Shown piece after piece: positions 19,557 through 63,259 of a stretch of DNA of 64,000 nucleotides (its first letter is position 1; each line of letters begins with the position of its first letter). The notes beneath the pieces are model-generated. The model made no database searches. It saw only the letters and a program-made list of their open reading frames with translations, and was not told where the DNA came from. Source of the stretch: Verrucomicrobiota bacterium (lineage in GTDB: Bacteria > Verrucomicrobiota > Verrucomicrobiia > Opitutales > Puniceicoccaceae); assembly GCA_038744685.1 (NCBI GenBank), contig JBCDMB010000003.1, positions 62,001 to 126,000 on the forward strand, in the 5' to 3' direction. A program made the position numbers and the translations under genes.

Positions 19557-20705
19557 TCACAACCGCTCGAGGAGAGTCCCTTTTACCCACCTCTCCGCAA
19601 GGTCCAGAACTTGTCCCAATGATGGGAATTTTCCAGTCCGAACGTAGTACCCACTAGCGCAAACCCCGCACGCCAAAACAGCCGGATCACTAAGCCCAAG
19701 CAAGTGAGATCCCATCACTCCAGCACCAAACGTATCCCCCGCTCCGGTTGAAACGAGAGGCTTTTCAACAAAAGGACCGGGCACATATACAGCTCCTTCC
19801 TCTCCTGCACTTGCAGCACCATCGTTAGGATGGACAACAATACGATCCACCTTAATTCTCTCCCGCAAGAATAGGGATAGATCGGCTACTGTGCTGGGCT
19901 CTCTATCTCCCTTGAAAGAAGCGCCAAAAATCGCCGCCATCTGCCAAGCCTCTTTGAGATTCAAACTGAGGATCGTGTGGCACTGATTTGTAATTTCCCC
20001 CACCAAATCGACCAAACTGCTTTGATCCTCAAACGGCCTTTGATCGAACTCCGCCAAATCCATGAAAAAAGAGACCTCTTTCACTTTTCGACCCACTGCT
20101 GCCAAGCGCTCTGCGAGCCCCCTCCAAATCGTTCCTACGTTAACCAGCTTTCCCCAATTGACCGCACCAATAAAGTCTATCGTTCTCAGCTCCTTGTCCA
20201 GCTCGTCTAAACCCATCCGTTCAATTAAACGCTCCCAGTGGATGTCTGAACAAAAACGCAGATCACTCAACATCACTTTTCCATCACGAAACTCAAGGCA
20301 ATCGCTGTGAGCAGGATCGGCCAGCGATATCATTTGCTTCATCTTATCATCCATGGCCTCTCGAAAAACCGGCAGAATCTCCTGATTTCCCAGAGCACCA
20401 ACATAGGTGATCTCTGTTTGTTTTCCGAGAAATGAGTGAAGAGCCGAAGAGAGTAGCGGCCCATTTCCCCCGAATCGATCGCCGTGATTTTGGACGGTGA
20501 ATGAAGTAGCAATTCCTGCTGCCTCCAATACCTTCGAACCAAACTCTGCCATCGTATCCGGTTTTTCAACCTCGATAAACGTGTCTATAAATCCGTCGAA
20601 ACCGCAGAGTCCGCTCCACGGCTCCTTTATTTTGAGCTCAACCGTGCGGCGAAACTCGGCAACCACATCGACCAATTCAGAGGGATCCAAAAAGACTTTT
20701 TTCAT
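19557..20705 (-). CDS. PfkB-family sugar kinase (copy 1)
   Basis: The 382-residue ribokinase-fold protein has a typical N-terminal substrate-binding region (GFDGFIDTFIEVEKP, then GGNGPLLSSAL and TYVGALGN) and a C-terminal nucleotide site with the catalytic Asp in STGAGDTFGAGVM. Substrate cannot be read from the sequence. A second, clearly related copy lies at 59327-60457 in this window; shared blocks include GxDGFIDT, RFGGNGP/KLGGNGP, FxDGKVML and SGYYVRx. The gene stands alone, convergent with crcB and separated from the Cys-rich peptide gene upstream by a terminator. Confidence 0.85.
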   Translation of the reverse strand: MKKVFLDPSELVDVVAEFRRTVELKIKEPWSGLCGFDGFIDTFIEVEKPDTMAEFGSKVLEAAGIATSFTVQNHGDRFGGNGPLLSSALHSFLGKQTEITYVGALGNQEILPVFREAMDDKMKQMISLADPAHSDCLEFRDGKVMLSDLRFCSDIHWERLIERMGLDELDKELRTIDFIGAVNWGKLVNVGTIWRGLAERLAAVGRKVKEVSFFMDLAEFDQRPFEDQSSLVDLVGEITNQCHTILSLNLKEAWQMAAIFGASFKGDREPSTVADLSLFLRERIKVDRIVVHPNDGAASAGEEGAVYVPGPFVEKPLVSTGAGDTFGAGVMGSHLLGLSDPAVLACGVCASGYYVRTGKFPSLGQVLDLAERWVKGTLLERL

Positions 20706-20775
20706 CCACTAATACCGAATTTTATTGGTGTAAAACCTTCCACCACGAAACCCGATTCCAAGAGATTCTACGATC

Positions 20776-20809
20776 AAAAAAGGGCGCACACCACGAAAGG
20801 TGTGCGCCC
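20776..20809 (-). terminator. Rho-independent terminator for the Cys-rich peptide gene
   Basis: An 11-bp perfect GC-rich stem (GGGCGCACACC at 20782-20792 with GGTGTGCGCCC at 20799-20809) has a 6-base loop. On the minus strand it is followed by six T (20781-20776). It lies 31 bases after the stop of the 46-residue peptide gene. Confidence 0.92.
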
Positions 20810-20840: not shown

Positions 20841-20981
20841 CTACTGACAACCACCGCAAATTGGGCATTCGCAAGCACTCGGTAGACAACCGTTGCAGGT
20901 CTCGCAAGACTCGCAATCAAGTGCGAAGACCGATGCTGTGAGCCCAATCACTAGATGAACAGAAATAAAAATAAACTTCAT
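20841..20981 (-). CDS. 46-residue cysteine-rich exported peptide
   Basis: A complete small gene. ATG is at 20981 with AAAGG 8 bases upstream, stop TAG at 20841, and a strong terminator just beyond. The first 20 residues form a signal peptide (MKFIFISVHLVIGLTASVFA). The mature 26 residues contain eight cysteines in two clusters: C-x2-C-x2-C-x2-C, then after four residues C-x-C-x2-C-x2-C. This spacing suits metal clusters or a tightly disulphide-bonded fold. No family is recognised; metal binding is an inference. Another Cys-rich exported protein is encoded 66 bases upstream on the same strand. The start codon, ribosome site, signal peptide and terminator together argue it is real. Confidence 0.8.
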   Translation of the reverse strand: MKFIFISVHLVIGLTASVFALDCESCETCNGCLPSACECPICGGCQ

Positions 20982-21046
20982 TAGTTATACCTTTCGTAAA
21001 AATTTTTGCGATGTGACGGAATCTATCCGACACAGAAAACAGTTCT

Positions 21047-21379
21047 CTACGAAAGTCTGGGTGGAGGCCCGGGAGGACACTCCAGTCGCAACCAACCCTG
21101 TTCTGAATCGTTGGCCAACATCGATTCGAGGCAAAACTCAGTCGTCATCCTCACATCCAAGGCCAGAAAATAGAGTGAGCTAACCGGACAAAAACAAGCG
21201 GATCCGCTATTCGAACACATCTCAGAATTCGAACAGCAAGAATCCGCAGAGGCTGTCTCGGTGCAGCAACACTGCTCTTTTTCCAAAGCCGCCAAAAGAC
21301 CTCCTACATCCAGCCCTTGAGACAATGAAAGAAACAGCAGAGTCGATGAAAGAGTGACTGCTGCAATTTTCCTCCACAT
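21047..21379 (-). CDS. small exported Cys-rich protein, unknown
   Basis: From ATG 21379 the product has 110 residues; the frame extends to a TTG at 21415, but ATG 21379 starts directly at the signal peptide (MWRKIAAVTLSSTLLFLSLSQG). The mature region carries a dense Cys cluster (QCCCTETASADSCCSNSEMC, then CSNSGSACFC), a hydrophobic middle (VSSLYFLALDV) and a proline-rich tail (CPPGPPPRLS). The composition recalls small DUF2946-like exported proteins tied to metal handling, but the match is not firm. It precedes the 46-residue Cys-rich peptide gene, so the two may share a transcript and a function. Confidence 0.6.
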   Translation of the reverse strand: MWRKIAAVTLSSTLLFLSLSQGLDVGGLLAALEKEQCCCTETASADSCCSNSEMCSNSGSACFCPVSSLYFLALDVRMTTEFCLESMLANDSEQGWLRLECPPGPPPRLS

Positions 21380-21483
21380 AGATTTAAGGAAACATGACTG
21401 ATAGACTACTGTCAAACGAATGCTCCTCGCAACAGACGAAGATCGCTTAAACCCGACCTCTTATGGAGAGATCAAGAGAGGCA

Positions 21484-59326: not shown

Positions 59327-60457
59327 CTAAGAAGGGAGCGTCGCAAATTCCGTATTTTGCAAAAAGGCCCCTATGGCCCCCAAAGAGGGGCTTTCGGCTG
59401 ACCTCACGTAATACCCCGAAAACGCACAACCGATCACCAAAGCTGAGTCTGGCGACAATCCGAGAAGCCGTGCAGCCACAAACCCGGCGTTGAAGTGGTC
59501 ACCGCCGCCCGTCGTAATTGTGGGATCTGCGGTGAAAAAGCCATCGGTGTAAAAAGTGTCCTCTTTCGTCGCACACGCAGCACAATCCAGCGGATGGACA
59601 ACCACGCAATCTACTCCGATCTCGGAACGAATGGAACGCGCCATCCCCCGAATGTCTTCCTCGTTGCCGTGTCCGCTCGGAAGGCCCAAAACACGCGAAA
59701 CATGCTGAGCTTCACTCAAATTCAATCCGAGAGTAGTGGAACCAAAAGCGCAGAAGCGTCCCAAGAGACGAAGGACGCCTACCAGGTCACCATCAGAGCG
59801 TTTGGCGGGGTCTGCCAAATCGAAAAAGAAGCTCCGGTGGTCACGGGGACCTAAATTCGGATAGACCTGGTCGATCAGACTCTGCAAAAACCCGGTGAGG
59901 AACGGCAGCATCGTCCAGTTGACTACAGCGAACAAATCCGTCCGAGAAAGCAGGTCGAAAAACGCACCTTCTCCCATTTTTTCCAGCACTTTTGAGTAGG
60001 TAACCTCCTCGAGAGAATCCATCAAACCCAGCATCACCTTGCCATCTTTAAACTCCAACGCATACGTCACACCGGGTTCAGCCAAAGACACCGCATCGGT
60101 TTTCGCTGCCATATCTTTAAATACCGGATGGATTTCCGGAATCCCCAGAGCCCCTACGTAACGCGTTGGGAAACCCGCAGCAAGAACGGCGTTGGCAAGT
60201 ATGGGTCCGTTTCCACCCAGTTTCTCAGTGATCTTTCCCATCTCGATGTTTGTGCTCTTGCCCGCAGCAGCCACGATGCGATTCCCAAAAGCGGCCATCT
60301 CACGAATCGGTTCATAGTTGTCACCGGGACCAAATCGCCGATCCACCGGATTGATGATGGTATCGACGAAACCATCGAGACCGACCAACACACTTCTTGT
60401 GGATGCCTCACTCGCTTTTGCCGAGAGCTCTTGAATCGCTGCGGTTTTCTTATCCAT
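59327..60457 (-). CDS. PfkB-family sugar kinase (copy 2)
   Basis: The 376-residue protein is a paralogue of the kinase at 19557. Both have GxDGFIDT/GLDGFVDTIINP at the start, LGGNGPILANAV versus FGGNGPLLSSAL, YVGALGIPE versus YVGALGN, and a similar C-terminus with SGYYVRSAESPSLG. The catalytic motif here is GGGDHFNAGFV, retaining the Asp but replacing GAGD by GGGD. Substrate unknown. It lies alone, 126 bases upstream of tmk. Confidence 0.83.
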   Translation of the reverse strand: MDKKTAAIQELSAKASEASTRSVLVGLDGFVDTIINPVDRRFGPGDNYEPIREMAAFGNRIVAAAGKSTNIEMGKITEKLGGNGPILANAVLAAGFPTRYVGALGIPEIHPVFKDMAAKTDAVSLAEPGVTYALEFKDGKVMLGLMDSLEEVTYSKVLEKMGEGAFFDLLSRTDLFAVVNWTMLPFLTGFLQSLIDQVYPNLGPRDHRSFFFDLADPAKRSDGDLVGVLRLLGRFCAFGSTTLGLNLSEAQHVSRVLGLPSGHGNEEDIRGMARSIRSEIGVDCVVVHPLDCAACATKEDTFYTDGFFTADPTITTGGGDHFNAGFVAARLLGLSPDSALVIGCAFSGYYVRSAESPSLGAIGAFLQNTEFATLPS

Positions 60458-62620: not shown

Positions 62621-62719
62621 ATCGAACAGTAGAAGCACCTGAAAAATCGGCCTCGATTGTTTGAAAACCCCAAAATAACGGTTCCATTCCCTCTCCTTTC
62701 ACTTAACACCACCACAATT

Positions 62720-63259
62720 ATGAAAACAAAAATCGCATTAGTCCTCGGCTCGCTTTTCGTTGCAGCCTCAGTTTCCTACGCAGCTTCTTGTGCTGCATGC
62801 GCGGGAGGCGCCAAGGCAGCCAAGACATCAACGCCTATCGGTATGGACGTCGTCGAAACCGCGGCCGGTGCTGGAGACTTCGGCACCCTCGTAGCAGCAA
62901 TTGAAGCTGCTGGTCTAACTGGCGCGCTTCAGTCGGCTGACAACATCACCGTCTTTGCTCCGAACGACGCAGCATTCGCGGCTCTCCCCGACGGCGTAGT
63001 CGAGACACTGCTCCTCCCTGAGAACAAAGACACTCTTGTCGCAATTCTTACCTACCACGTCATTCCGGTCGAGGTGTTTGCAGCAAATGTGACCCCCGGT
63101 TCGGTAAATACGCTGGAAGGCTCGCCGATTGAAATTGCCATCACCGACGGAACCGTGACGGTCAACGATGCAACCGTGATCGCAACTGACGTGGAAGCCA
63201 GCAACGGCGTGATTCACGTAATTGATCAGGTTATCCTTCCGCCAAGCGTCGAGCTCTAG
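62720..63259 (+). CDS. fasciclin-domain exported protein
   Basis: The protein of about 179 residues has a signal peptide (MKTKIALVLGSLFVAASVSYA), a short Cys-bearing segment (ASCAACAGG) and a single fasciclin/FAS1 domain: NITVFAPNDAAFAALP (FAS1 box 1) and VIATDVEASNGVIHVIDQVILPP (box 2). FAS1 domains mediate adhesion or binding in the envelope. A terminator follows at 63283. It may be read with the Tol set, but a 99-base gap suggests its own promoter. Confidence 0.92.
   Translation: MKTKIALVLGSLFVAASVSYAASCAACAGGAKAAKTSTPIGMDVVETAAGAGDFGTLVAAIEAAGLTGALQSADNITVFAPNDAAFAALPDGVVETLLLPENKDTLVAILTYHVIPVEVFAANVTPGSVNTLEGSPIEIAITDGTVTVNDATVIATDVEASNGVIHVIDQVILPPSVEL

Follow-up and report, generated by a model that had tools for sequence, protein, structure and literature searches.

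Among the closest described systems is CutF of Rhodobacter capsulatus, a Sec-exported protein of 118 aa with a CxxxC motif and the C-terminus P109EPEGPPPRL118 (PMC9973294, PMC8456105). As described in PMC9973294, copper binding delays the co-translational export of CutF itself, and an mRNA stem-loop over the cutO ribosome site then unfolds. The same source describes the relatives of CutF as small and poorly conserved, and collects them by a length below 150 aa, a signal peptide, a PP among the 15 C-terminal residues and a same-strand neighbor. CruR of Bordetella pertussis, a DUF2946 protein, contains CXXC and RAPP motifs and is linked to Rho-dependent termination (PMC9426467); the gap between CruR and the next gene is stated as 162 nt in PMC9973294. 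Arrest of CruR in vitro was shown in 2025, and other RAPP leaders precede metal genes (PMC12992588). Bufferin precursors have Sec signal peptides and Cys motifs and are described as MNIO-modified RiPPs (PMC12452194).

In the open-licence literature, a cassette of a leader and an exported metallothionein-like micropeptide was not found. A search of the same literature for exported, secreted, periplasmic or extracytoplasmic metallothioneins returned a fungal case only, and no cysteine-rich small proteins of Verrucomicrobia were found there. Metallothioneins are about one-third Cys and contain no aromatic residues. Here, we describe two small ORFs of a Verrucomicrobiota bacterium that apparently constitute a CutF-like control unit with an exported metallothionein-like micropeptide as its target.

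Results

Organization of the Locus

The window, i.e., the whole stretch of DNA analysed, comprises 64,000 nt of contig JBCDMB010000003.1. The following features were located in the window:

21047–21379, minus strand: P0002, a CutF-like leader, Cys-rich and predicted to be exported; its length is 110 aa with the ATG start, or 122 aa if a TTG at 21415 is the start
21053–21079, minus strand: codons of the polyproline C-terminus of P0002, CPPGPPPRL
21044–21055, minus strand: predicted 5' arm of a stem, CUUUCGUAGAGA, covering the last two codons of P0002, its stop and 3 nt
21012–21034, minus strand: inner hairpin in the loop of the stem, from fold prediction
20991–21002, minus strand: predicted 3' arm of the stem, UUUUUACGAAAG, containing the P0001 ribosome site
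20990–20995, minus strand: P0001 ribosome site GAAAGG
20841–20981, minus strand: P0001, 46 aa, with the ATG at 20981, the stop ending at 20841 and the mature codons at about 20844–20921
20782–20809, minus strand: strong intrinsic terminator 3' of the P0001 stop

The first-pass annotation had reported a 46-residue ORF with eight Cys at 20841–20981, and these coordinates proved right. The plus-strand reading of this interval is broken by stops, and the true strand is minus. P0001 has the sequence MKFIFISVHLVIGLTASVFALDCESCETCNGCLPSACECPICGGCQ (46 aa, translated from the minus strand) and occurs in one copy in its own 3.64-Mb genome. The claimed ATG and ribosome site were both present, the latter as GAAAGG at 20995–20990 with AAGG located 8 nt 5' of the ATG. 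The claimed anatomy of a signal peptide followed by a 26-residue mature part with 8 Cys was also borne out: the signal sequence is MKFIFISVHLVIGLTASVFA, presumably cut after A20, and the mature part is LDCESCETCNGCLPSACECPICGGCQ, of which about one-third is Cys. The Cys residues of the mature part are spaced C-x2-C-x2-C-x2-C-x4-C-x-C-x2-C-x2-C, its net charge is −4, and it contains neither aromatic residues nor His.

As a control for chance, the window was dinucleotide-shuffled 300 times (19.2 Mb in total), and ORFs of 30–80 aa were collected. None of the 218,688 ORFs in shuffled DNA had at least 8 Cys in the last 26 residues, while 1 of 561 in the real window did. The full codon score of P0001 was lower than that of all 481 coding windows because of its Cys content. 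By synonymous codon choice alone, P0001 ranked at percentile 71 among the coding windows and at percentile 90 among 441 off-frame windows.

The terminator consists of an 11-bp stem followed by six T (fold z −5.8). It had been regarded as belonging to P0001 alone; its strength was confirmed, but it more likely ends a P0002–P0001 unit.

Along the minus strand, a TgpA-like transglutaminase gene is followed by P0002, P0001, the terminator and the ketohexokinase gene. In the congener G003, the transglutaminase and kinase genes adjoin, at a distance of about 114 nt versus 778 nt here, and neither Cys-rich ORF is present; the cassette as a whole was therefore either acquired here or lost in G003. The transglutaminase and kinase genes of G002 are located on separate contigs. 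No cassette-like ORFs were found upstream of the G002 kinase, and the approximately 4.5 kb downstream of the G002 transglutaminase contained no P0001-like peptide and a single Cys-rich ORF (87 aa, 9 Cys), which overlaps a larger one. An 11-nt element, AATCTCTTGGA (window 20757–20767, minus strand), is located just 5' of the ketohexokinase gene and 3' of the terminator. It is identical in three congeners and likely represents a promoter or regulator site of the kinase; thus, the cassette sits between the transglutaminase gene and the likely kinase promoter.

None of the genes beside the cassette in the window was identified as a metal gene, and there was no Rfam RNA at the locus. A mobile element was considered and dropped, as there were no direct repeats. 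A second ketohexokinase-type gene at 59327–60457 (minus strand) of the window is about 37% identical to that at 19557–20705. At 62657–63259 (plus strand), the window encodes an exported protein, presumably fasciclin-like, with the mature start SCAACAGG, which is another exported CxxC motif.

P0002 and Its Resemblance to CutF

P0002, the partner ORF, had been missed by the first-pass annotation. Its alternative TTG start is preceded by GAGGAG, and its stop is separated from P0001, on the same strand, by 65 nt. By a crude script rule, the start of P0002 is signal-peptide-like. P0002 contains 10 Cys, arranged as CCC...CC...C...CFC..., and its C-terminal end is LECPPGPPPRLS, the last residues being CPPGPPPRLS. 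This end resembles the CutF end EGPPPRL as given in PMC8456105. P0002 is shorter than 150 aa, carries a signal peptide by the script rule and has PP in its last 15 residues, as in the published collection of CutF-like proteins. That collection also uses a same-strand gene within 1,000 nt, mostly within 100 nt, and here P0001 follows at 65 nt. However, P0002 contains neither CxxC nor CxxxC, the latter being the metal-binding motif of CutF, and no RAPP motif of the CruR type. It matched no Pfam family even at E 10, and so none to DUF2946 (PF11162). As there is no CxxxC or CxxC and no match to PF11162, we describe P0002 as a protein that may work like CutF and do not class it as DUF2946. Judged by its sequence, P0002 looks like a CutF-like metal-sensing leader.

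The likeness to the CutF–CutO system comprises a short, Sec-exported, Cys-bearing leader, a polyproline C-terminus with GPPPRL in common, a same-strand target a short distance downstream, and a predicted stem-loop over the ribosome site of that target. In contrast to the CxxxC of CutF, P0002 has CCC, CC and CxC clusters, and it has no sequence-family match; the target is a 46-aa exported peptide with 8 Cys here and a multicopper oxidase there. P0002 also shares with CruR its upstream position, its export, a Cys motif and a PP near the C-terminus; CruR is metal-responsive, and P0002 may be so as well. P0002 differs from CruR in having no CXXC or RAPP, and in a 65-nt gap with a stem as opposed to Rho termination and a 162-nt gap.

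Predicted Structure over the P0001 Ribosome Site

The P0002–P0001 junction was predicted to fold into a 12-bp stem (z −3.6), and none of 200 shuffles reached this value. Five of the six bases of GAAAGG pair with the arm at the end of P0002, with a probability of 0.92–1.0 in five fold windows of 111 to 641 nt. Of 49 other starts taken in the window, none had a contiguous helix of at least 12 bp over the ribosome site, and of 3,000 random positions 0.5% had one. Mean pairing over the P0001 ribosome site was ordinary (17 of 49 starts were equally high), and an opening cost as high as that of P0001 was found at 4 of 49 starts. Opening the P0001 site required 7.9 kcal/mol in free RNA. For a P0002 stop occupied by a ribosome, with folding allowed only in the RNA downstream of it, the cost was 2.4 kcal/mol. 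When the final 30 nt of P0002 were shuffled 300 times, no shuffle attained the observed opening cost. By prediction, the ribosome site of P0001 is shielded by a stem-loop as described for the target of CutF. An 18-nt near-palindrome, TCGTAAAAATTTTTGCGA, is located at 20994–21011 of the window, just 5' of the P0001 ATG; besides lying in the stem, it could be a protein operator.

Homologue Searches in Close Relatives

In four genomes of the family, P0001 matched only itself and one weak site in G003 (E 0.193) amid ordinary longer genes. In 372 genomes of the order, it matched itself and gave 16 weak matches with E values of 0.0136–0.0859. Inspection of 14 of these 16 (G455 and G442 were left out) revealed no small exported Cys-rich ORF. 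There was no match to P0001 in plasmids, phages or PHROGs, and there were chance matches only in PDB sequences. No Pfam family was matched, NCBIfam gave a chance match only (an aldose dehydrogenase model), and no curated profile of a known metallothionein family was matched. Four Cys in C-x2-C spacing occurred at 28 places in the four family genomes, and P0001 was the only small exported ORF among them.

Searches with P0002 of 52 relatives, 372 genomes of the order, 387 genomes of the phylum, plasmids and viral contigs gave no credible homologue among the matches inspected; the best other match in the 387 phylum genomes had an E value of 4.4e-4. Inspection of 14 + 5 match loci of P0002 showed none that was small, exported and Cys-rich, and most were antisense or out-of-frame readings.

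Recurrence of a Similar Gene Pair in Other Families

The 387 phylum genomes were also searched with a DNA pattern that contained only the eight Cys codons in the spacing of P0001, with at most one mismatch. The pattern matched 67 genomes, mostly at CTG/TTG repeats, which were judged by eye and removed before counting. Among the matches listed, which comprise the first places in each genome, the exact non-repeat ones were the window itself and three others, of which G077 and G053 belong to one genus of family f42 and G068 to family f44. The matches in G077, G053 and G068 are small exported Cys-rich peptides, e.g., MKTILMTALVAMTLMGTALAAPAQEKCKDCCKCEACKCAPCACCKCETCKCAK, although export was not part of the search pattern. 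Each of the three peptides is located directly behind a CutF-like ORF with a signal-like start, a Cys cluster and a PP-type end. These leaders end in ...TDPPLLRPPIVS, ...TDSPLLRPPIYSCI and ...RTDRPAVPPPIAEG, with gaps to the peptide of 47, 40 and 75 nt, and the G068 leader requires a GTG start within a longer frame. When both strands of other loci (450,149 bases) were scanned, six leader-like ORFs were found; for the 100 nt preceding any one site, this amounts to an expectation of roughly 7e-4, G053 and G077 not being independent of each other.

The peptides of G053 and G077 have 44 of 53 residues in common, including all 12 Cys, and their dN of 0.11 and dS of 1.38 indicate strong purifying selection. 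The flanking genes of the two are unrelated (GCV_T, HAD and MFS versus HSP90, ABC and LptD); thus, the pair has been kept and the genomic place has not. The distant counterparts contain 12 and 15 Cys, of which the 8-Cys spacing of P0001 is a subset. Their Cys number at least 12 and lie in CxC, CC and CxxC runs, which makes them metallothionein-like.

Downstream of the peptide, a terminator-like hairpin is present in L162 (coding strand) and L163 (flagged on the other strand), and none was flagged in L164. The ribosome site pairs with the 3'-terminal 30 nt of the leader in L052, with 2% of 300 shuffles scoring as high, and also in L054, but there 31% of shuffles scored as high; no such pairing was seen in L055. 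P0002 showed no significant similarity to the leaders of G077, G053 and G068, and P0001 showed none to their peptides beyond the Cys residues, and a common origin of the P0002–P0001 cassette and the distant pairs is unproven. Nine less repetitive one-mismatch matches (L053 and L165–L172) were inspected, and none contained a module of leader and peptide.

Two further ORFs were observed at these loci. In G077, a small exported CPVM...YVCCGGC protein (L052:740–1018, plus strand) with no credible Pfam match is encoded directly upstream of the CutF-like leader, and it resembles a YHS-type metal protein. In G359, a congener of G053 and G077, L053:491–1540 (minus strand) contains an exported ORF of 349 residues with 75 Cys in partly masked sequence.

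The first-pass annotation had stated that absence of conservation of the frame or of the Cys pattern in close relatives would refute the gene. On that measure it would be refuted, as neither the family (3 other genomes) nor the order (371 others) yielded a credible homologue. In more distant families, however, the exact Cys spacing turned up three times, always behind a partner ORF of the same kind.

Discussion

A metal chelator, a redox carrier and an antimicrobial or signalling peptide had been proposed as roles of P0001. Metal chelation is the best supported of the three, since P0002 directly upstream resembles a metal-sensing leader of the CutF type. Like metallothioneins, the mature part of P0001 is about one-third Cys and has no aromatic residues; it differs from them in its export by a signal peptide, its length of just 26 residues and the lack of a family match.

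We consider it somewhat better than an even chance that P0002, P0001 and the terminator constitute a two-gene metal-response cassette, in which a metal-sensing leader licenses an exported metallothionein-like chelator. P0002 would be exported during its synthesis, and its Cys cluster would sense a soft metal outside the cytoplasm. The ribosome translating P0002 would linger on the CPPGPPPRL-stop codons, slowed by metal on the emerging Cys cluster, and would then cover the 5' arm of the 12-bp stem, so that the P0001 ribosome site is freed. P0001 would then be made and exported, and its 26-residue part with 8 Cys would bind the metal in the periplasm, acting as a metallothionein-like chelator of minimal size. 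Sequence and computation show both exported ORFs, the motif, the predicted stem, the terminator and the recurrence in two other families; from there we infer co-transcription, metal sensing, stalling, the metal concerned and chelation. The parallel with CutF suggests that this metal may be copper.

The stem and the gene order would also fit if the stem just tied P0001 synthesis to P0002 translation, with both products being exported metal-binding or structural proteins and the nascent chain sensing nothing. Stalling is deduced and P0002 has no canonical CxxC or CxxxC, both of which are consistent with such plain translational coupling. However, coupling needs no polyproline end, yet GPPPRL matches CutF, and a PP-type end was present in all three of the other leaders. 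We regard plain coupling as rather unlikely.

P0001 might instead be a secreted antimicrobial or signalling peptide with four disulfides in 26 residues, and P0002 its partner or precursor. The signal peptide, the small size and the 8 Cys agree with this, as does the orphan status of P0001, which is frequent among fast-evolving secreted peptides. Most antimicrobial peptides of this kind are cationic, whereas P0001 has a charge of −4 and no aromatic residue. The metallothionein-like appearance of the distant counterparts, and the fact that no transporter or immunity gene was seen next to P0001, also argue against a disulfide-rich peptide, and we find this explanation improbable.

A bufferin-type RiPP precursor, with its Cys modified by an MNIO enzyme before export, would resemble P0001 in its Sec signal peptide, its short Cys-bearing chain and metal buffering as the proposed role, the first two being features of bufferin precursors in PMC12452194. 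However, PF05114 (MNIO) had no match in the genome carrying P0001 (97.8% complete), while the control was positive in 2 of 14 control genomes, and there was no MNIO enzyme among the nine scanned neighboring proteins of the distant counterparts. As no MNIO enzyme was found in this genome, P0001 is probably not a bufferin, and we give this origin a very small chance.

Equally unlikely is a chance reading frame without function. The lack of a homologue in the congeners would agree with chance and the codon statistics of P0001 given above leave room for it, but the shuffled small ORFs produced no such frame, a ribosome site, signal peptide, terminator and stem are all present, and a similar leader–peptide pair recurs in other families. 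Attenuation of ketohexokinase transcription by P0001 as a Cys-codon leader peptide, to which the order of a Cys-rich small ORF, a terminator and a same-strand gene would correspond, is the most unlikely, as the 11-bp terminator folds alone and persists in a 221-nt fold of ORF and terminator, P0001 carries a signal peptide, the 11-nt element 5' of the kinase, which lies beyond the terminator, is kept in three congeners, and in G003 the kinase is present although the P0001 ORF is missing.

The preferred reading of a metal-sensing leader that licenses an exported chelator can be extended beyond this locus. Tentatively, and at slightly less than an even chance, we propose an undescribed "sense and sequester" cassette of Verrucomicrobiota, in which a CutF-like nascent exported sensor would directly license an exported, unmodified metallothionein-like micropeptide. 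It would be present in at least three families and at different genomic places, with a sequence that is almost free except for the Cys spacing, the polyproline leader end and the gene order. Such a nearly free sequence would explain why annotation pipelines and searches by homology miss the module. Its architecture, i.e., the leader end together with the Cys spacing, allows it to be found where homology is of no help.

The known targets of CutF-like leaders are metal enzymes, transporters and chaperones. If our proposal is true, an exported Cys-rich micropeptide as the target of a CutF-like leader would represent a two-gene, regulator-free metal buffer, and a class of tiny secreted Cys peptides too short for annotation would gain a function.
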